Source of the DNA: Candidatus Saccharimonadota bacterium
GTDB lineage: Bacteria; Patescibacteriota; Saccharimonadia; Saccharimonadales; Saccharimonadaceae
Assembly: GCA_017479205.1 (NCBI GenBank)
Contig: JAFVCN010000023.1
Span: 1-41,784 of the forward strand
Length of the DNA: 41,784 nucleotides
Reading direction: 5' to 3'
The notes beneath the pieces are model-generated. The model saw nothing but the letters and a program-made list of their open reading frames with translations, was not told the origin of the DNA and did not search any database. How positions within the stretch are numbered: position 1 is the first letter of the stretch; every line of letters begins with the position of its first letter. This document shows positions 20,698 to 33,880 of the stretch, piece by piece. Both the position numbers and the translations under genes were made by a program.

Positions 20698-20729
20698 ATA
20701 GGCTTTTATGAATTCTAAAAAATTTTATG

Positions 20730-20735
20730 TATAAT
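20730..20735 (+). promoter_or_regulatory. -10 box for the ABC transporter (leaderless)
   Basis: TATAAT is followed by exactly 6 nt and the ATG at 20742. The in-frame ATG at 20727 lies upstream of this box and so outside the transcript. Confidence 0.7.
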
Positions 20736-20741
20736 AAGGTT

Positions 20742-21911
20742 ATGTTAACGGTTAAAAATATTTCTAAAATTTACGAAACGGAGGGCATAGAGTTAAAAGC
20801 TCTTGATAATGTTTCCGTTAGTTTGCGCAAAAATGAATTTGTTTCCATCCTTGGTCCCAGTGGATCTGGAAAAACAACTTTACTTAATATTATCGGAGGT
20901 CTTGATCGCTACACAAAAGGCGATATTATAATTGACGGCATTAGTACAAAAAATTATACAGACCGAGATTGGGATACCTACCGTAATCATCGTGTAGGTT
21001 TTGTTTTCCAAAGTTATAATTTAATACAACATCAGACAGTTCTTTCAAATGTCGAGCTGGCGTTAACTCTTTCTGGTGTTTCCCCGTCCGAACGTAAAGA
21101 ACGAGCTAAAAATGCTTTGGATAAAGTCGGGCTCGGAAAACATATTAATAAGCGCCCAAGCCAGCTTTCTGGCGGACAGATGCAACGCGTTGCAATTGCA
21201 CGCGCGCTCGTAAATAACCCAGATATTGTACTAGCCGATGAACCAACTGGCGCGCTCGATTCTAAAACTAGCGTTCAAATTATGGATCTACTCAAAGAGA
21301 TCGCAAAGGATAAACTTGTCGTTATGGTAACTCATAACCCTGAACTCGCTAAAGATTATTCTACCAGAATTATCAATGTTAAAGACGGAAAGATTGTTGG
21401 CGATACAGATCCGTATGATGATAAGAACGAAGAAAGAGACGAGAGCAAGAGAAAGCGTACCTCTATTAGTCTTCTCACGGCTTTTCAGCTCAGTACAAAT
21501 AATCTCCTAACTAAATGTGGTCGTACAATATTAACAGCGATTGCTGGTAGTGTCGGTATTATCGGAATTGCCCTAATTCTTGCACTAGCTAATGGTGTTA
21601 ATCAATACGTAAATAATCTTGCGGGTCTAGGTTCTGTTCCATCGCCGATTACTGTCGACAGGGTTTATCTTCAGTCCGATAGTTTCTCTATAGCAAATGT
21701 TAAAACTGACGACTCAAATGCTAATGGCGAGATTGTTGCAGAAGATGACATTAAAGATAATTTAAGCATATCTAAACAAAACCAGGTACGATTTAATGAT
21801 ACTGCTGGTCTAAAGAAATATATTGACGAGAATTCTGAAACTATAAATAATATAACCGATTCGGTTTCTTACAGCTATGATGTAGATGTAAATGTTTACG
21901 ACAAGGATTAG
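20742..21911 (+). CDS. MacB-like ABC transporter, ATPase plus first membrane helix (5' part, ends at in-frame amber)
   Basis: This part covers 389 codons before a TAG. Residues 1-235 are an ABC ATPase of the MacB/LolD type: Walker [10 protein letters not shown], the signature [15 protein letters not shown], Walker [13 protein letters not shown], and the switch VTHNPEL. A linker then leads to one transmembrane helix (about 263-287, [18 protein letters not shown]) and the start of an extracytoplasmic domain. The reading frame continues without another stop into the 22026 ORF, so together they encode a 745-position fused ATPase-permease. The family exports peptides, lipids or antibiotics or works in mechanotransmission; the substrate is unknown here. 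Start chosen from the leaderless promoter. Confidence 0.9.
21909..21911 (+). other. In-frame amber codon interrupting the ABC transporter
   Basis: TAG at codon 390 is followed in the same frame by 38 sense codons (starting NGEIIKVNPFEDN) and then the 22026 ORF. The codons around it encode a plausible extracytoplasmic domain. One substitution from AAG, CAG or GAG would explain it. Confidence 0.9.
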
Positions 21912-22025: not shown

Positions 22026-22979
22026 ATGAAAGAATTTATTTCGGAGACTCCTTATGAAATTCTTTCTGGCAGTTTTCCTAAATCAGCGAACGAACTAGTA
22101 TTAGTAGTTGACGGCGATAAAAAATTTAAATTAAGTAATGCCTATACTTTGAATCTTGCAGATAGAACAAAGCTCGACACCTTTATTTATAATATTAATC
22201 ATAATATTGAACTCGTATCTGGAAATGTCGGGTTTTCTTATGATGATATTATCGGAAAAAGTTATCGCGTTAGCTTAAATGGCGAAAGTTATGACGATGC
22301 GTTCGAGGCTAAGATTGTTGGCGTTGTAAAAGCTAAAAAGGCCGATGACGAAAGCGGTTTTCTAGCTTATACACACGGACTCATAGAAAAGATTTTACAG
22401 GCGTCAGGAAAAGATAATGGCACTCCAGAAAAAATCAGTCTTTATCCAAAAACTGAAGACAAAAAGAAAGAAGTGATCGCGTTCTTGGATAAATACAATG
22501 AAGGAAAAGAGGAGAAGATTTATTATCAGGATGCGACAGCCGAGATAATAAAGACTATTAAAACTGCGGTTAATTTAATTTCTTATGTACTGATCGCTTT
22601 TGTTGCTATTTCCCTGATTGTATCTAGCATTATGATCGGAATTATTACTTATATTTCAGTCCTTGAGCGCACGAAAGAAATCGGAATTCTGCGCGCAATT
22701 GGAGCTAGTAAGCGCGATGTTGTACGCGTCTTTAGAGCTGAAACTATTATCGAAGGATTAGTTGCGGGATTGATTGGGGTAATTGTCGCTTATTCACTTT
22801 GCCTTTCAGTCAACACCATTGTTTCTGCACTTGCAAAAATTGACAACATTACTCAGTTCTCTATTGTTCAAGCAATCATATTAATTCTAATTAGTATAGG
22901 GTTAACGGTTTTCGCGGGAGCTATACCAGCGAGCCGCGCAAGTAAAAAAGACCCTGTTGAGGCCTTACGTAGCGAATAA
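22026..22979 (+). CDS. MacB-like ABC transporter, permease C-terminal part (3' part)
   Basis: This part has 317 residues: the rest of the extracytoplasmic MacB-type domain and an FtsX-like permease domain with three membrane helices (near 187-212, 236-262 and 280-302). The FtsX signature ISVLERTKEIGILRAIGASKRDV and the C-terminal ASRASKKDPVEALR are intact. No Shine-Dalgarno sequence or promoter precedes the ATG at 22026, so separate translation is doubtful. It would be reached by readthrough of the TAG at 21909, or the gene is a recent pseudogene. Absence of further stops or frameshifts argues for recent mutation, sequencing error or functional readthrough. Confidence 0.85.
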   Translation: MKEFISETPYEILSGSFPKSANELVLVVDGDKKFKLSNAYTLNLADRTKLDTFIYNINHNIELVSGNVGFSYDDIIGKSYRVSLNGESYDDAFEAKIVGVVKAKKADDESGFLAYTHGLIEKILQASGKDNGTPEKISLYPKTEDKKKEVIAFLDKYNEGKEEKIYYQDATAEIIKTIKTAVNLISYVLIAFVAISLIVSSIMIGIITYISVLERTKEIGILRAIGASKRDVVRVFRAETIIEGLVAGLIGVIVAYSLCLSVNTIVSALAKIDNITQFSIVQAIILILISIGLTVFAGAIPASRASKKDPVEALRSE

Positions 22980-26127: not shown

Positions 26128-29100
26128 TTATTCTCCGTTATCAAAACGATTCATTGCTTCATTAACATAATTTTGATTTTCTTCTGGAGTATTGTTGTCT
26201 GCTGCTGATTCCTGATTTGCTTCAGAATCATTGATAGCATTTACTTCTTCTGGAGTTGAAGGTTCTTCAATATTCTGTGTACCTTCCTCATTCGAGACTT
26301 CATCTCTCCAGCCAGAAGTATCTTCGCTGTAAGTTGCATCTGTTGGCTCAGTTGCATCCTCATTTTTTTCTTCTACTGGAATCGTGATATTCTCAGCTGA
26401 ACTGCCAGGAGTGTTGTCGTTTACATAACCGTTTTCTTCTCCAGCTTCGCTTCTTGGAGTCTCGTCTTCTGGAGTTACCTCTCGCTGCGTCCAACCGTCG
26501 CCTTCTTCGCCAGGAAGAATATCGGTTTTACCATCATATTCCGTAGTAGCTTTTTCATTAGTTTCTTTTTCAGAGGTAACTTTTTCGTTAGTAATCTTCT
26601 CGTCCGTAATTTTCTCGTTCGTTACTTTCTCGTTTGTCGTTTTTTCATTTGTAGTCTTCTCGTTCGTTGTCTTCTCGTTCGTTGCCTTCTCGTTTGTCTC
26701 TTTTTCAGAAGTCTCTTTGGTTGTTTTTTCGTCTGTTTCCTTTGTCGTCTTTTCGTCGGTTTCCTTAGTTGTTTTTTCATCAGTTTCTTTAGTGGTCTTC
26801 TCGTCGGTTTCCTTCGTAGTTTTCTCGTCTGTTTCTTTAGTGGTCTTCTCGTCCGTTTCCTTCGTTTCCTTTTCTGACGTTGTTTTTTCATCAGTTTCTT
26901 TGGTTTCTTTCTCGGAGGTCTCTTTTGTCGTCTTTTCGTCGCCCGTATCTGGGTTATCGACAGTAATAAGGATTACCTGGCCACATTTTAGAGAAATTTC
27001 GATATCGTATTTCTCCATAATCTTTTTAGCTTCATCTTCTGAAGCACCTGCTGGGATAACTCCGACTGCGCGTAGATATCTGTCTTTATATCCGCCAGCT
27101 TCGTTAGAATTTAGCTTTTCTGAAGTAACAGCATAGAAATCTTCTTTTGCTGGGTTAGTTTCATCCTGCCAGACATATTGGAGAGAGCCATCAACATCTA
27201 CGATGTATAATGAACCATGCGACTCGCCCTGTTCGTGCTTAACTAATTTTACTTCTTGTCCATCAAAGAGATCGTTAAGGACATTAACTGACGAACCGTG
27301 CATTAACTCTCGTGCGTCTTCGTCGCTCTGCGCGATTTGCATAACGTGGTTCATTTCGTTAAGATTTGTGATTCCGTCGGTATCGCCATTAAGAACGAAG
27401 TCCGAACCGGCCATCATCGCAAATTGTCCAGCTTCAGCAAAGTCTGAAGAGCGACCGTAGAGATTCTCAAGTCCCTGCTCGCCGATTTCAGCTTTAGTCA
27501 TATTACCAGCATTCTGCATATCATAGAGCTTTGAAACGATATTATATTTACCTTGTTTTAAGCCCATTTCATCGCCAACTTCAGTATAGAAGTCGGATTC
27601 GCCATCCCAAAGATCAGTAGAGGTGTCAATCTCAAGGTTTTCTCCATCGACAATTACATTAATCGACTTCAAAGTTTCGTCTTCCATATCTGCTTCAAGC
27701 GACTGTTCTGAAGCTTTTTGTAAGAGCTGTTCCTGTCTTTGAGCATCAGCATCAGATCCAGTATTAGACTTAGTATCTACGTTATCTGACGCTTCGCTGA
27801 CAATCGCTTCTTGTGGAGCTGTTGGCTGGTTGACTGGAGGAATTGTAGCGCAACCTGCAAGACCTCTCATGACAGATAGGCCAAGCATAACTGTCATAAC
27901 TGCCTTTTTCCAGCCATGAAGTCCATATTTTTTCGCAGCGTTCTTCTTACCTTCTTTAGTACGATTTGAGCGATTAAAGAAGCCTTTGAGCTTCGAGAAT
28001 AAGCCTTTCTTTTCTGGAGCAACGTCTTCTTCGCCGTCTTCCATCATTTTGCCGACATCTTCCGCAGTCTTCTTCTGTTGTTCTGCGAGAATTTTATCTG
28101 CATTATCAGCGCTATAATTAAGTTTATCTTCATAAAGTGCGCGTACTGCCTTATCGAAATCTTCCTGAGAACCGAAGTACCTTCGGAAATCTTCATCACT
28201 GGCATACTCATCATAGAATTTTTGCCATTCTTCATCGCCAGCTTGTTCTGCGGCTTTATTTAGATTATCCTCACGAGCTTTAATTAATGCATCCATATCT
28301 TCTTTGAAAGCTGGATGTTTTTCAAGCCAATCGAGCGCAGCAGGATTGCCCTTTTCAATTTCTGCGGCTAGTTCTTTCTGAGCTAGATCCTGTTTAGCAT
28401 ACCAGTTTGCCATATTAAGTAGGCTTTCTGGATCCATTTTTTCTGGATCAGCGATGTCATTAAATGAACCTTCTAGGGCTTGGGCCTTAGGACTGTTATC
28501 TACTTTTGTGCGATATTCAGCAAGATATTTTGCAGGATTATCGATTTTATCTTGTGCCGCTTTTAGAGCTTCCTGATATTCTTCTTCTGTATTATATCCA
28601 TCATCAATATCATGAAGCCACTTTGCACTCTCAAGTTCCCTCTTTCCATCTTCAATAATCTGATTTAAAACAGTTCCGACTTGTTCAGCATCCTGATCTG
28701 CACGGTTCTGAAGTGCATCAAGTCTGCCTTCCGCTGCGGCTTGATGAGCTTTTCTAACTTCTTCAGCATACTCTTCTTCAGAGAATTCGCCATCTAATTT
28801 GCGAGTTTGAAGATCATCTAATTTATCTGCTAGAGCTTGTTCAATATTTTGGTCTGCAGCTTCCTGAGCGTTTGCCCCGCCAGAAAGCGCTTCGAGTCTT
28901 GCTTCAGCATCGCTTAATTTTGCGTCAAGCTCGGCTTTTTTCTTATCGTATTCTTCACCCCAAATATTGCCGTCATCTTTCTGCATCTCAAGTCCTTCAA
29001 TCGCCTTCTTAATATCGGCAATTTCAAGCTGGACTGCTTCTCTCTGCTGATCAACTTCGCCAGAAAGAAGTACATTCTCAGCGCTTCTTTCTTCGCCATA

Positions 29101-29511
29101 TTTATTATTAATCTTATCGATTTCTGCCCGATATTCTTCTTCAGCAGTCGTGAAAGTTCCGTTCTCTTTCTGCTCGCCACCAAGCTGTCCATCAAGTTTT
29201 CTAGTTTCTAGCTCATCAAGCTTATTCGCGCGTTCCTGATTTCTACGGGTAATATCATTGAAAGTTTCAACAGTCGAGAGGAAGGCTCCGCTTTTCTCTG
29301 CCTGAGCTTCGAGTTCTTCATCGTTCATAGAGTTTAAGCTCTCGAGTAGAGAAGTTGCACTTGCTAGTTTCTGCTTTAGTTCAGGGTGCTGATTTAAGTA
29401 TTCAAGCGCTTCCGGAACATTATTTTTTACGCGTTCTGCGAAAGTTGGCATATCATTCATAGCATCATCCGTATTAATTGATTGTCCTGGCTGAAATTCT
29501 GAATTGCTCAT
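26128..29511 (-). CDS. Giant coiled-coil protein with mid-protein membrane segment and KETDEKT repeats
   Basis: I do not recognise this 1127-residue protein. Residues 1-510 are acidic, highly helical and lack a signal peptide. They contain repeated units resembling SHOCT-type helices (KLDELETRKLDG, KLDDLQTRKLDGEFSEEEY, DIDDGYNTEEEYQEAL) and two VPEALxYLxxHPELK-like motifs. A basic stretch leads to a hydrophobic segment (about 535-553) ending in LAGC (C554), like a misplaced lipobox. A folded domain (about 590-850) follows, then a repeat stalk (about 858-985) of TKETDEK heptads and TNEKx pentads, and an acidic tail. Predicted topology: N-terminus inside, stalk outside (inference). It follows GAGGAGG and directly abuts the 29512 gene. 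Confidence 0.75.
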   Translation of the reverse strand: MSNSEFQPGQSINTDDAMNDMPTFAERVKNNVPEALEYLNQHPELKQKLASATSLLESLNSMNDEELEAQAEKSGAFLSTVETFNDITRRNQERANKLDELETRKLDGQLGGEQKENGTFTTAEEEYRAEIDKINNKYGEERSAENVLLSGEVDQQREAVQLEIADIKKAIEGLEMQKDDGNIWGEEYDKKKAELDAKLSDAEARLEALSGGANAQEAADQNIEQALADKLDDLQTRKLDGEFSEEEYAEEVRKAHQAAAEGRLDALQNRADQDAEQVGTVLNQIIEDGKRELESAKWLHDIDDGYNTEEEYQEALKAAQDKIDNPAKYLAEYRTKVDNSPKAQALEGSFNDIADPEKMDPESLLNMANWYAKQDLAQKELAAEIEKGNPAALDWLEKHPAFKEDMDALIKAREDNLNKAAEQAGDEEWQKFYDEYASDEDFRRYFGSQEDFDKAVRALYEDKLNYSADNADKILAEQQKKTAEDVGKMMEDGEEDVAPEKKGLFSKLKGFFNRSNRTKEGKKNAAKKYGLHGWKKAVMTVMLGLSVMRGLAGCATIPPVNQPTAPQEAIVSEASDNVDTKSNTGSDADAQRQEQLLQKASEQSLEADMEDETLKSINVIVDGENLEIDTSTDLWDGESDFYTEVGDEMGLKQGKYNIVSKLYDMQNAGNMTKAEIGEQGLENLYGRSSDFAEAGQFAMMAGSDFVLNGDTDGITNLNEMNHVMQIAQSDEDARELMHGSSVNVLNDLFDGQEVKLVKHEQGESHGSLYIVDVDGSLQYVWQDETNPAKEDFYAVTSEKLNSNEAGGYKDRYLRAVGVIPAGASEDEAKKIMEKYDIEISLKCGQVILITVDNPDTGDEKTTKETSEKETKETDEKTTSEKETKETDEKTTKETDEKTTKETDEKTTKETDEKTTKETDEKTTKETDEKTTKETSEKETNEKATNEKTTNEKTTNEKTTNEKVTNEKITDEKITNEKVTSEKETNEKATTEYDGKTDILPGEEGDGWTQREVTPEDETPRSEAGEENGYVNDNTPGSSAENITIPVEEKNEDATEPTDATYSEDTSGWRDEVSNEEGTQNIEEPSTPEEVNAINDSEANQESAADNNTPEENQNYVNEAMNRFDNGE
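26560..26940 (-). repeat. Codon-scrambled heptad/pentad repeat region of the giant protein
   Basis: In protein order, about seven copies of a 7-residue unit (TKETDEK) are followed by about ten copies of a 5-residue unit (TNEKT, TNEKV, TNEKI and similar). Adjacent 21-nt copies encode the same residues but differ at many synonymous third positions, for example TCG, TCA, TCT and TCC complements in the same place. Confidence 0.85.
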
Positions 29512-29910
29512 TTATTTGTCCTCCTCTAAAGCAAGATATTTTTCACGAAAGGCCGTCATCGCTTCTTCAGTAATCGTCTCCACATCGATTCCTGATTCAG
29601 CAATGATACCTTCAATTTCTTCATCACTAGCACCGTTATCAATTGCGCTTTCAAGTTTCTGTGCAGATTCTTCAGGTAAAGCATTTACAAGTTTGCGATT
29701 AATTGCATTCTCAAGTTTTTCTAAGAGAACGCCACGCAAAGCATCATTAGGCTCTACACCTTTATCTAGAATCATCTGTTCAACATAAATAGCTGTAAGC
29801 TGATCTTGGGTTAGATCCTCGATTATTTCGTCTGGAAGGTCTTGTCCTTCCGGTAGGTTTTTGAGCTGCTCAAAAGCCCTGGTTAGTTTTTCGTCTTCTT
29901 GTGGTGTCAT
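29512..29910 (-). CDS. Small acidic helical protein, partner of the giant protein
   Basis: This 132-residue protein is soluble, acidic and mostly helical. Two helix-rich halves can be seen: LPDEIIEDLTQDQLTAIYVEQ and LPEESAQKLESAIDNGASDE, both beginning LP(D/E)E. The second resembles the DUF5663-type module I associate with Candidate Phyla Radiation proteins; that identification is tentative. It has no signal or cysteine. Its TAA is directly followed by the ATG of the 26128 gene, whose ribosome site (GAGGAGG) lies in its last codons, so the two are tightly coupled and may bind each other. A consensus promoter lies about 60 nt upstream. Confidence 0.75.
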   Translation of the reverse strand: MTPQEDEKLTRAFEQLKNLPEGQDLPDEIIEDLTQDQLTAIYVEQMILDKGVEPNDALRGVLLEKLENAINRKLVNALPEESAQKLESAIDNGASDEEIEGIIAESGIDVETITEEAMTAFREKYLALEEDK

Positions 29911-29971: not shown

Positions 29972-30000
29972 ATTTTAACGCTAATGTTTAATTATGTCAA
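29972..30000 (-). promoter_or_regulatory. Consensus promoter of the 29512-26128-24790 operon
   Basis: TTGACA (29995-30000), a 17-nt spacer and TAAAAT (29972-29977) on the minus strand. The -35 box directly abuts the terminator hairpin at 30001-30030. The transcript would have a leader of about 55 nt, unlike the leaderless genes. Confidence 0.8.
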
Positions 30001-30030
30001 CAAAAAATCGGAATTTTTTCCGATTTTTTG
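30001..30030 (-). terminator. Terminator of the small ORF transcript
   Basis: CAAAAAATCGGAA (30001-30013) and TTCCGATTTTTTG (30018-30030) form a perfect 13-bp stem with a 4-nt loop, starting 17 nt after the stop of the 30047 ORF. It is symmetric and could act in both directions. Confidence 0.85.
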
Positions 30031-30046
30031 TATAAAGGTTAAATTT

Positions 30047-30163
30047 TTAGCTAATTATCGTAGCAAGATGTCCTAATCTTTTAGCTATTCTAGCTTTTGC
30101 TTCAGGAGAGATCTCTTGCTTCGATATATAATTGGCCTCGTTTTCATAAAATTCGAAACCCAT
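30047..30163 (-). CDS. 38-residue small protein
   Basis: ATG at 30163 is preceded by AAGGAG about 10 nt upstream, and the ORF ends in TAA just before a strong terminator. The product starts MGFEFYENEANYISKQ and continues with a likely amphipathic helix (ISPEAKARIAKRLGHL) and a hydrophobic end (ATIIS). It has no signal peptide or cysteine and I recognise no family. Coding status rests on the ribosome site, the discrete transcription unit (promoter 30684-30712, terminator 30001-30030) and normal-looking composition in a region otherwise full of stops. It could be a regulator or membrane-associated peptide; no function can be assigned. Confidence 0.55.
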   Translation of the reverse strand: MGFEFYENEANYISKQEISPEAKARIAKRLGHLATIIS

Positions 30164-30677
30164 ATTTATTATTCTCCTTATTTACCTATTTTTATTTTTA
30201 TTATTTTAATGTTTACTTTTTATATAATGTGCGTATTACTATTTTATTTTTGTTGATGTAATATTTTTATATATTGAATACATTTTTTATAGTTCTTATC
30301 TGTTCTATCTTATCTATAATGGTTGAATAATTTTTGTATTCAATTCTCTGTTATCTTTTCTTTTTTGCCTGAACATTTTTCGATTCGTTTCAAACCGATA
30401 TATTGTCATCGCCCAGGACGGTTGTTGCTATCCCGACCAAGATTTTAAGATTGTCTTACATTGGTATCTCCTTTTGCCTTAAAGTTTGTATTTTTACCTC
30501 AGACTTATATTCTTCTCCTTTCGTTAATCTTTTGGTATTTTTGTCTTTCGTATAGGCGTTTTTCCTTTCTTTTTATTTTTATTATTTTCGACTCGTTCTT
30601 TGTCTTTGTTTAGGTTCGACCGTTTTTATTTATATTTGGGTTAGATTTGATTTATTTTTTGTTTTCTTTTCTAACTT
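30164..30677 (-). ncRNA. Putative ~510-nt A-rich untranslated RNA / long leader
   Basis: This stretch lies between the promoter at 30684-30712 and the 38-codon ORF. It is very A-rich on the transcribed strand and has stops in all frames. It contains several AAAGGAG-like motifs, one followed by ATG-TAA (30456-30461), and a more GC-balanced core at about 30380-30470. Near its 3' end are alternative stems (30273-30344). It could be a long regulatory 5' leader, a stand-alone RNA, or decayed coding sequence. I see no known RNA family (no tmRNA, RNase P, 6S or SRP landmarks). Confidence 0.35.
30456..30472 (-). other. Start-stop element (AUG-UAA) with strong Shine-Dalgarno
   Basis: On the minus strand AGGAG (30468-30472) is followed by 6 nt, ATG (30459-30461) and at once TAA (30456-30458). 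A ribosome initiating here would terminate immediately. Confidence 0.4.
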
Positions 30678-30683
30678 GTTTTA

Positions 30684-30712
30684 AGTGTATCATACTTATG
30701 CTTATTTGTCAA
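30684..30712 (-). promoter_or_regulatory. Strong sigma70 promoter of the small-ORF transcription unit
   Basis: TTGACA (30707-30712), a 17-nt spacer and TACACT (30684-30689) on the minus strand. It directs transcription leftward into the A-rich region and the 38-codon ORF. Confidence 0.75.
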
Positions 30713-30871: not shown

Positions 30872-33800
30872 TTAGGCTTTTTCTAGAGAGATAGTAATAT
30901 TATCGTCGCCAATCTTAACGATTTCGTCGTATTCAAAGTTCTCTGCTGAAGCGTCCGTAGTAAACTCTTCTGCTAAGACTTCGTTCATGATCATTGGTTT
31001 TAGATCGTCTGAAACGAAGCAAGAAACCGAAAGTTTAATTCTATCATCAACATTAAGTCCAGCTTTTTTCCTTGCCGACTGAATAAAGCGGATTAGCTCA
31101 CGCGCGAATCCTTCCGCCCTTAGTTCTTCCGTTAATTCTTTATCGAGTTTCATGGCGGAACCGTTTGTAACATGTTTAACGTTTACTTCTTCCGCAATAA
31201 TCGCCTCATAGAACTCTTCAAGTTTATCTCCGTCGTAAACAAGCTCGGAAAGCGGCTGACGAACTTTTATTTGTTCTTCAGTATCAGATTTTTGCATTCT
31301 AAGCGCTAGGCCTTCGGTAATAATCTCACGTGTTCTACTCATCTCGCTTAAGATTTCATCATCAATCTTACCAGCTTCAGGCCAATCTAGAAGATGGACT
31401 GAAGAATTAGAACCAGTCATCTTCTGGTATAGCTCTTCCGATAGGAACGGTACAAACGGAGCAAGAATCTGCGCAAGATAGACTAGTACGAAATATAGGG
31501 TCGAGTAAGCCTCAAGCTTGTCGCCATCATCTTCTGACTTCCAGAAACGACGACGTGAGCGTCTAACAAACCAGTTAGAGAGGTCGTCAATAAACGGTAG
31601 AACTCCTGAAATTGCGCTTGGTATATTATATACTCTCATACCAGCGTCAATCTGGTTTCGAAGCTGATAGACTCTAGATACAATCCATTTATCTAAAATA
31701 TTTTCAAACTTATCCGGACTGATTGCTCGATCCGAGTCGAATTTATCTACCTCGGCATAGGTTGTAAAGAAGTCATAGACGTTCCAAACCATCGAAAGCT
31801 TTCTTGCAACATCACTAACATCTTTATCGAGCAAAGCAAAGTCTTCTCCAGCGAGTACTGGCGAGCCTAGCAATAAGAATCTTAGCGAATCAGCCGAGAA
31901 CTTGTCCATCAACTCGTTTGGATCAGTATAGTTTCCGAGCGATTTACTCATTTTTCTGCCGTCATTACCAGCGAGCGTACCGGTTGTAATAACGTTTTTA
32001 TAAGCGTTATGACCGAAGAGCGCCGTATTTACGACATGAACATAATAGAACCATGCTCGAACCTGTCCAACATATTCTACAATGAAATCAGCTGGATAAT
32101 TCTTTTCGAACTTTTCTTTATTCTCGAACGGATAATGTAACTGTGCAAATGGCATAGAGCCAGATTCAAACCAACAGTCTAGCACCTTCTCGATTCTCTT
32201 AAAATGCTCTCCGTCGATATCAAATTCGATTTCATCAACCCAAGGCCTATGATAATCCTCTAGTCTAACGCCAGATAACTCATATAGTTCATCATAAGAG
32301 CCTACAACCTTAACGGTTCCCTTGTCGCCCTTCCAAACTGGCATTGCTGTCGCCCAGAAACGATCGCGAGAAAGATTCCAATCTGGCGCCGCTTCGATAT
32401 TCTTTGCGAAGCGTCCATGCTTTAGGTGTTCCGGGAACCAGTTTACATTTTCATTCTCGTCGAGCATTAACGTTTTTGAACCAGTTACATCAAAGAACCA
32501 GCTCGGAAATGCACGATACATAATTCTCTGTTTCGAGCGAGGGTTAAACGGATATTCGTGCTTAATATATTCGATTTTATAAACGATTCCTTTTTCTTCG
32601 AGAATCTTAGCAATGAATTTATTAGCTGCCCAAATCTCCATACCGTTTTCATCCGTATCACGGACTCCAAGCTCATGAAGTTTCTCGCTCATCTCTGGCA
32701 GATAATAGCCGTTTTCATCAAGTACATCAACAAAATCGACATCCTCGCTAGTTGCAAGAGCATAATCGTCTTCGCCATAGGCCGGAGCGATATGAACAAT
32801 TCCGGTACCCTCTTCGCTTGAAACAAAATCCGCCCCATGAACCTTGTAGGTACCCTGATTTCGTTTATCTAAACCATTGTCGCCACCAGTTAAGATTTTA
32901 CCTTTTTCATCAACTGTTTCAATAATTGGCTCATACTCTAATCCAACAAGCTTTGAACCTTTAAATTTTTGTTCAGGCACGATATCACTAAATAATTTTG
33001 TTGCTAATTTTACGGCCAAGATTAATTTTTTACCATCAACCTCATAGATTCCGTACTCCATTTTTGGATTAACTGCAAGAGCTAAGTTTGCGGGTAGTGT
33101 CCAAGGAGTAGTTGTCCACGCTAGTAAGGCGATTTTGTCATTTGCGTTAGTTTGAGCTTTATTCAAAGGAGCAGCGGAAGGAGACGTATTAGAGATACGT
33201 TGACTAAGCAGCGTATCTGCTGACGCAGAAGAAAGCCAAAATAACGTAAATGCCGACGGGTCTGTTACGGTCTGATATGCATCATTATCCATCGTAACTT
33301 CCGCTTTTGAAACTGGAGTACAGAATTTAGTGTCGTACATTAAGACCTTACGACCTTCGTAGATTTTTCCCTTTTTATATAGAGTCTTAAACGCCCACCA
33401 AACCGATTCCATAAAATCTTTATCCATCGTACGATAAGCGCCTTTAAAGTTTACCCAGCGCCCAACTCTAGCGATTGTCGACTCCCAAGTTTCTGAATTT
33501 GCTACCATAGATTCTCGAGCCTTAGTAATATAAGTTTCGAGTGGCCATTTTGTACCAATTTCACGCCTGTCTGTAATTCCAAGCTGTTTCTCAACAAAAT
33601 TCTCTGCTGGAAGACCATGACAGTCCCAACCCCATCTTCTCTCAACTCGATAGCCGTTCATAGTCCAAAACCTAGGAACAGCGTCTTTAACGATTGAAGA
33701 AAGTAAGGTTCCATGATGTGGATTTCCAGTAATAAATGGAGGTCCATCATAGAAGACATAACTTCTGTCCACATCTCTATTTTCAACGGATTTTTCAAAT

Positions 33801-33880
33801 GTATGATCTTTTTGCCAAAAATCCAAAACTGCTTTTTCATATTCTAGGGCTCTACGCCTCTCGCCTGCTTTATATTTCAT
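30872..33880 (-). CDS. ileS: Isoleucyl-tRNA synthetase
   Basis: This 1002-residue class I synthetase resembles the type 2 (eukaryote/archaea-like) IleRS. The first signature is HHGT at 55-58 (in GNPHHGTLL), where HxGH is usual. The second is KMSKS at 643-647. LLAWTTTPWTLPANLA marks the editing domain, and EYVGQVRAWFYYVHV lies in the catalytic core. The C-terminal anticodon-binding region is present. An unusual Ser/Ala/Asn-rich segment (about 215-248) sits in the editing domain just before the WTTTPWT motif. GTGGAGA precedes the ATG. It is transcribed alone or after the HD gene, and ends at the structure at 30781-30866. Confidence 0.96.
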   Translation of the reverse strand: MKYKAGERRRALEYEKAVLDFWQKDHTFEKSVENRDVDRSYVFYDGPPFITGNPHHGTLLSSIVKDAVPRFWTMNGYRVERRWGWDCHGLPAENFVEKQLGITDRREIGTKWPLETYITKARESMVANSETWESTIARVGRWVNFKGAYRTMDKDFMESVWWAFKTLYKKGKIYEGRKVLMYDTKFCTPVSKAEVTMDNDAYQTVTDPSAFTLFWLSSASADTLLSQRISNTSPSAAPLNKAQTNANDKIALLAWTTTPWTLPANLALAVNPKMEYGIYEVDGKKLILAVKLATKLFSDIVPEQKFKGSKLVGLEYEPIIETVDEKGKILTGGDNGLDKRNQGTYKVHGADFVSSEEGTGIVHIAPAYGEDDYALATSEDVDFVDVLDENGYYLPEMSEKLHELGVRDTDENGMEIWAANKFIAKILEEKGIVYKIEYIKHEYPFNPRSKQRIMYRAFPSWFFDVTGSKTLMLDENENVNWFPEHLKHGRFAKNIEAAPDWNLSRDRFWATAMPVWKGDKGTVKVVGSYDELYELSGVRLEDYHRPWVDEIEFDIDGEHFKRIEKVLDCWFESGSMPFAQLHYPFENKEKFEKNYPADFIVEYVGQVRAWFYYVHVVNTALFGHNAYKNVITTGTLAGNDGRKMSKSLGNYTDPNELMDKFSADSLRFLLLGSPVLAGEDFALLDKDVSDVARKLSMVWNVYDFFTTYAEVDKFDSDRAISPDKFENILDKWIVSRVYQLRNQIDAGMRVYNIPSAISGVLPFIDDLSNWFVRRSRRRFWKSEDDGDKLEAYSTLYFVLVYLAQILAPFVPFLSEELYQKMTGSNSSVHLLDWPEAGKIDDEILSEMSRTREIITEGLALRMQKSDTEEQIKVRQPLSELVYDGDKLEEFYEAIIAEEVNVKHVTNGSAMKLDKELTEELRAEGFARELIRFIQSARKKAGLNVDDRIKLSVSCFVSDDLKPMIMNEVLAEEFTTDASAENFEYDEIVKIGDDNITISLEKA

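Follow-up and report, generated by a model that had tools for sequence, protein, structure and literature searches.

Why would a Saccharibacteria genome place several hundred nucleotides of untranslated RNA in front of a very short gene? This question is raised by a minus-strand unit in the window (the whole 41,784-nt stretch of DNA that was analysed), where an RNA of about 677 nt, bounded by a promoter at 30712–30684 and a terminator at 30030–30001, contains only one real ORF, of 38 codons (Table 1). The preceding leader of about 514 nt is A-rich and lacks a convincing ORF. The genome that harbors this unit comprises 738 kb in 41 contigs and is about 90% complete. Among named relatives, its best matches are Candidatus Saccharibacteria MAGs, many of them from ruminant guts (goat, sheep, deer and others). 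To our knowledge, gene regulation in Patescibacteria has been little explored. In the open-access literature on Saccharibacteria RNA, we found nothing relevant with such a design.

Support for a discrete transcription unit

The initial annotation regarded this region as a discrete transcription unit with a TTGACA-17-TACACT promoter, a leader, a 38-codon ORF behind AAGGAG as the only convincing ORF and a perfect 13-bp terminator touched by the –35 box of the next operon. Each of these elements was found in place, including the TTGACA of the next operon (30000–29995), which directly adjoins the terminator of the unit. A scan of the window with the promoter consensus, however, returned 9 promoter-like sites compared with 7.8 expected, which is no better than chance, and the case for the unit accordingly rests on relatives. 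We judged the promoter and terminator sites to be real because the promoter and 5΄ end are conserved (the promoter is 80–98% identical in the nearest relatives) and because the ORF evolves as a coding sequence.

The folding of the window transcript was more stable than that of shuffled sequences (z = –4.8, from 20 shuffles only and with the terminator included). A consensus alignment fold of the leaders of the clade yielded no common structure (energy 0); therefore, we do not claim the good folding score as evidence of a conserved fold. Rfam searches returned tRNAs only for the whole window at the gathering threshold, and only sub-threshold chance matches for the unit at a lax threshold, with no riboswitch, T-box or sRNA family.

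A AGCATAAG-like word was also observed in the –35/–10 spacer of the unit's promoter (30712–30684; listed with 30000–29972). In relatives, the word recurs in the downstream gene's promoter spacer and also 5΄ of the –35 box. It could be the target of a shared regulator or belong to a second promoter.

Table 1. Positions of the unit's features and adjacent genes in the window
Feature	Position	Strand	Basis or remark
Promoter TTGACA-17-TACACT	30684–30712	–	TTGACA 30712–30707, TACACT 30689–30684; long promoter conserved genus-wide
Predicted RNA start	about 30677	–	likely start
5΄-terminal hairpin GTTAGA...TCTAAC, A-rich loop	30640–30675	–	stem frequency in units and compensatory changes
First SD element AAAGGA...CCTATACGAAAGA, motif 1	30544–30568	–	third-codon stop lost in the window copy
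Second SD element AAAGGAGAAGAATATAAGTCTGA, degenerate motif 1	30499–30521	–	about 45 nt from each neighbour, as the intact middle copy of L028
Start-stop: SD AAAGGAG, ATG 30461–30459, TAA 30458–30456, context CCAATGTAA	30456–30474	–	sole SD-ATG-stop of the window, both strands
Leader hairpin TTGAATA-CAAAAAT-TATTCAA	30323–30343	–	aligned in the clade as TTGTATA...TATACAA; similar hairpin in L149
SD AAGGAG of the small ORF	30174–30179	–	sequence
38-codon ORF MGFEFYENEANYISKQEISPEAKARIAKRLGHLATIIS	30047–30163 (stop included)	–	homologues, dN/dS, predicted C-terminal helix
Intrinsic terminator, perfect 13-bp stem, 4-nt loop	30001–30030	–	most relatives with a terminator at the same place
ileS, isoleucyl-tRNA synthetase, named from sequence	30872–33880	–	constant upstream neighbour
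DUF5663-like gene, outside the unit	29512–29910	–	just below the Pfam cut-off; own promoter at 30000

Conservation of the unit among relatives

A search with the unit gave a match in 20 out of 40 genomes, mostly to the promoter and 5΄ end and nearly always beside ileS. In a set of 81 loci (80 fetched ileS loci and the window), a profile of the promoter and 5΄ end matched downstream of ileS in 71, usually at a short distance from this gene and in a few loci at one to two and a half kilobases. The consensus of this region was ctGTtaAtTTGACaA - AAGCATAA - TaTTGAC - AAGTGTGcTA - AGTTAGAaAAtAAAAnAAAaAatctAaCAA. An 84-position model of the promoter and 5΄ end (R1) gave at least a weak match in each of the 174 genomes of the genus, and in most of them a full-length one. 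Outside the genus, the model was strong in two sister genera: g32, whose loci were already among the fetched ileS loci, and g42, in which locus L149 has the unit 3΄ of an ileS with 60% identity. Inspection of nine weaker matches in other genera revealed none beside ileS and none resembling the unit. The nucleotide and model searches of relatives that had been asked for at the outset thus indicate that the unit is conserved genus-wide and in sister genera. Because the rows are related sequences, our counts overstate the number of independent events, and many relatives are MAGs with incomplete contigs.

The initial annotation also connected the RNA with the giant surface-protein operon downstream. 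The DUF5663-like gene, the first gene of that operon in the window, lies 3΄ of only 48 out of 71 units, and the unit also occurs where this gene is missing, as in all g32-type loci. A function linked to the giant gene is therefore not general; the connection is local to the window, and ileS is the constant neighbour in the loci examined. This view is favoured by the locus search itself, which was anchored on ileS; copies away from the ileS locus were sought with the R1 model only, and many short matches there corresponded mainly to the generic promoter part.

Several further features of the neighbourhood were observed. Long imperfect inverted repeats of 100–200 nt, differing per genome, lie between ileS and the promoter in five loci (L003, L007, L020, L024 and L112) and look like REP- or MITE-type elements. 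In the window, a 1127-aa protein without a Pfam match (26128–29511) has tandem repeats of the TKETDEK type and a hydrophobic stretch resembling a lipobox, which is located mid-protein and not at the N terminus. An ABC transporter ATPase-permease is apparently split into two same-strand ORFs (20727–21911 and 22026–22979), for which a frameshift or an assembly error is possible.

Within the unit, conservation was uneven. Between the window and its nearest relatives, identity was 67–89% in the ORF and 37–45% in the leader. The commonest layout in relatives is a hairpin, ORF1, motifs and a terminator, and the order with motifs first and the ORF last was found in the window's clade only. It had been proposed that the long untranslated RNA was kept for a function. 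Comparison of the sequences makes it very likely that the untranslated part is functional, but the sequence of the leader is not conserved. Its kept features are the 5΄ hairpin, the SD/start-stop motifs and one clade hairpin, and the long form is peculiar to the small clade of the window.

The 5΄ hairpin and the small protein

The 5΄ hairpin begins about 2 nt from the predicted RNA start, and a stem of at least 6 pairs was present in 54 out of 70 units, compared with about 3% of shuffles. We evaluated covariation in 28 distinct sequences having the 27-nt form of this hairpin. Three of the seven pairs were changed on both sides in a compensatory manner, 93.9% of the cells were paired (89.0% in shuffles), and a covariation score as high arose in 1 out of 500 shuffles. 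A second hairpin of the TTGTATA...TATACAA type (TTGAATA...TATTCAA in the window) characterizes the leaders of the window's clade and, although few sequences are involved, also lies 3΄ of the start-stop in L149.

The ORF at the end of the leader has homologues in 8 genomes at E < 1e-18 and in 47 out of 174 genomes when weaker matches are included; the window's clade contains close homologues. Comparison of the window with its relatives (seven clade sequences) gave dN/dS values of 0.03–0.12 where computable, and 409 out of 684 differences fell at third codon positions, although these pairs are not independent. Substitution patterns of this kind clearly point to a small-protein gene under purifying selection. 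More distant units encode longer proteins that share a core, E..Y.S....S.E...I, and a Pfam search of the small ORFs found no family above the cut-off. For the 38-aa protein, AlphaFold2 predicted, with moderate confidence, one C-terminal helix (residues 20–37; mean pLDDT 76, pTM 0.34). These results add a genus-wide family of small proteins, from 38 to about 100 residues in length, without a Pfam match.

SD sequences followed by a start and a stop codon

Two motifs, CC(A/G)AUGUAA and CCUAUA(A/C)GAUAG, recur 3΄ of SD sequences, with one to three such sites per unit. An SD sequence with a motif occurred 80 times in 33 kb of units, compared with about 0.9 times in dinucleotide shuffles. Wherever SD-CCRATG was found, a stop codon followed immediately (42/42 sites; TAA 39, TAG 3). 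The motif patterns were derived from the same sequence set, although the stop after AUG, the flanks and the sister genus g42 serve as partly independent checks. The density of SD-ATG-stop was 1.07 per kb in units and 0.0067 per kb in flanking strands totalling 1.65 Mb (160 times denser in units), and none was present on the antisense strand of the units. Similarly, an SD-associated ATG was followed by TAA or TAG in 36 out of 102 cases in units, compared with 11 out of 828 in flanks. The unit of g42 retains SD-ATG-TAA without the CCR context.

The spacing between motif sites was mostly 39–62 nt. A few gaps of 93–99 nt would fit a missing middle copy of the motif. In the window, three SD sites lie about 45 nt apart; the third alone is a start-stop, and motif 1 is present in degenerate form at the first two. 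A well-spaced start codon is often missing from motif 1, and many units have a single site; the SD sequence is retained at the motifs, with variable spacing. In relatives, the motif sites are usually 3΄ of the small ORF, and only in the window's clade do they lie in a long leader. An open frame around the start-stop of the window, which has no start codon, was judged to be a chance occurrence.

These comparisons indicate that SD-AUG-stop is under constraint. The arrangement of an SD sequence and then a stop has been retained throughout the genus and in two or more sister genera, probably as a means of keeping ribosomes on the RNA for its protection or regulation. An SD sequence before AUG-stop that is kept across several genera would represent a natural bacterial example, of a rare kind, in which non-productive initiation is under selection, and the start-stop offers a testable element for studying how mRNA fate in Patescibacteria depends on ribosome binding without translation.

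A start-stop probably older than the second small ORF

In a subset of relatives, a second small ORF (ORF2, ERMTNVK...YELAIL) reads across the start-stop in another frame. It lies 3΄ of ORF1 in L093, L096, L086, L089 and others, and encodes a hydrophobic sequence of about 32–40 aa (...ERMTNVK...YELAILLxSxL); L067, L092 and L100 have another version, YRIDPLYY.IVYHIIL. In the ileS tree (FastTree), ORF2 was confined to one nested clade, and the start-stop was also present outside that clade, namely in the window's clade, g32 and g42. This distribution suggests that the start-stop is older and that ORF2 was laid over it later, with repeated loss or gain; because the deep forks of the ileS tree are partly open, this order is likely rather than proven. 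With its overlapping frames, the locus lends itself to studies of how small genes are born.

The same distribution bears on the idea that the leader is decayed coding sequence, left over from the two small ORFs (first and second) seen in relatives, as might be supposed from relatives in which ORF1 is near the 5΄ end and from those in which ORF2 crosses the motif. We consider this highly improbable, since ORF2 is found in one nested clade only, SD-AUG-stop occurs beyond it, and the SD, AUG and stop are retained where no frame is open. Decay, which had been named in advance as grounds for abandoning a functional reading, is thus not what the relatives indicate.

Possible roles of the start-stop element

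The reading that we prefer, to which we assign a little less than an even chance, is that the RNA is the mRNA of a small protein whose untranslated part would dock ribosomes in cis and be shielded by them from RNase Y and RNase J. We infer both ribosome binding at the SD sites and the resulting stabilization in cis. In this account, the small-protein gene downstream of ileS is transcribed independently, and its RNA begins within a few nt of a hairpin. Ribosomes would be received at as many as three SD sites spaced by about 45 nt, one of which precedes AUG-UAA. A ribosome initiating at AUG-UAA would have a stop codon in its A site at once, so that neither elongation nor a peptide would be expected; it would have to be released, and the site would then reload. 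Ribosomes that are parked or cycling there would, with help from the 5΄ hairpin, most likely protect the A-rich RNA against RNase Y and RNase J, both of which are encoded in the window's genome, and keep the small-protein message abundant.

A ribosome covers about 34–38 nt of mRNA (PMC8708949); because the site spacing of 39–62 nt exceeds this cover, docking of neighbouring ribosomes appears feasible. An SD sequence without a productive ORF stabilizes the cry3A mRNA, where 30S subunits are held against RNase J (STAB-SD; PMC4113751), and the two-codon minigene of axe-txe raises expression in cis only, an effect that the authors propose to arise because bound ribosomes protect the mRNA (PMC8708949). 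However, sites located 3΄ of the ORF, as in most relatives, cannot block 5΄–3΄ decay upstream of themselves. In addition, the CCR before AUG and the motif CCUAUA(A/C)GAUAG go beyond the needs of ribosome binding alone, and the conserved CCR and UAAGAUAGA bases point to an additional partner. The frequent lack of a well-spaced start codon at motif 1 and the many single-site units also speak against this account.

This surplus of conserved bases beyond the SD and start (CCR and UAAGAUAGA), together with the existence of two motif types, could alternatively mean that an RNA-binding protein or nuclease binds or cleaves the SD/AUG-stop and CCUAUAAGAUAG motifs and so matures or represses the mRNA, in which case the resemblance of these motifs to start sites would be secondary. 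We regard this as unlikely: the SD is kept despite variable spacing, AUG is invariably followed by a stop that varies only from TAA to TAG, the sister genus retains SD-AUG-UAA without CCR, and CsrA, the obvious GGA-binding candidate, was not found in any of 12 genomes. The position of the start-stop 5΄ of the ORF in the window's clade would suit a regulatory minimal ORF, at which release and reinitiation tune translation of the small ORF to a signal such as the supply of initiator tRNA or release factor, and eukaryotic start-stop uORFs act in this manner (PMC5972666). Such a role is nevertheless improbable, because about 296 nt separate the start-stop from the start of the small ORF, which is far for reinitiation, and because the start-stop is 3΄ of the ORF in most relatives.

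The RNA might instead act in trans as a sponge for ribosomes or initiator tRNA. It would then be an abundant decoy that reduces translation, and the small protein would be a passenger or partner. Conservation of the promoter and 5΄ hairpin and arrays of SD sites without productive ORFs would be expected of such a decoy. We find it quite improbable in view of the clear purifying selection on the ORF, the many units with one site and the axe-txe minigene, which acts only in cis where studied (PMC8708949). A regulatory RNA of a new kind, abundant and 5΄-protected, whose tandem SD-AUG-stop sites capture initiating ribosomes without peptide synthesis and which acts in trans on translation, would be a long shot; if true, it would operate in a host-dependent, slow-growing bacterium. 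A sponge of the CsrA type was considered separately and rejected, since CsrA was found in 0 out of 12 genomes with positive controls, the window's genome being about 90% complete.

Comparison with known systems

The unit resembles STAB-SD of Bacillus thuringiensis cry3A in having SD sequences in an untranslated leader far from an ORF, for which holding of 30S subunits and a block to RNase J have been proposed. STAB-SD lies near the 5΄ end and presupposes a 5΄–3΄ exonuclease in the host; in the window's clade, the SD sequences of the non-coding leader begin about 110 nt from the 5΄ end, and RNase J is present in the genome. Unlike STAB-SD, the SD here precedes AUG-stop, forms arrays of up to three sites and lies 3΄ of the ORF in most relatives.

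Bacterial minigenes such as mg2 of axe-txe likewise combine an SD with a minimal ORF, and ribosome occupancy is thought to protect their mRNA in cis; phage lambda bar is also a bacterial minigene. Described minigenes consist of AUG, a sense codon and a stop, whereas here the stop directly follows AUG and this order is conserved across genera; a two-codon minigene is not what any of the 42 SD-CCRAUG sites encodes, as all have TAA or TAG directly after AUG. An AUG followed directly by a stop is shared with eukaryotic start-stop uORFs (e.g. NIP5;1), which differ in their initiation mechanism, and most copies here are not upstream of the main ORF. Finally, RNAs of the CsrB/RsmZ type also contain many GGA motifs per RNA. 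Their GGA motifs are located in hairpin loops, whereas those of the present unit lie in an SD-start-stop context, in genomes where CsrA was not found.
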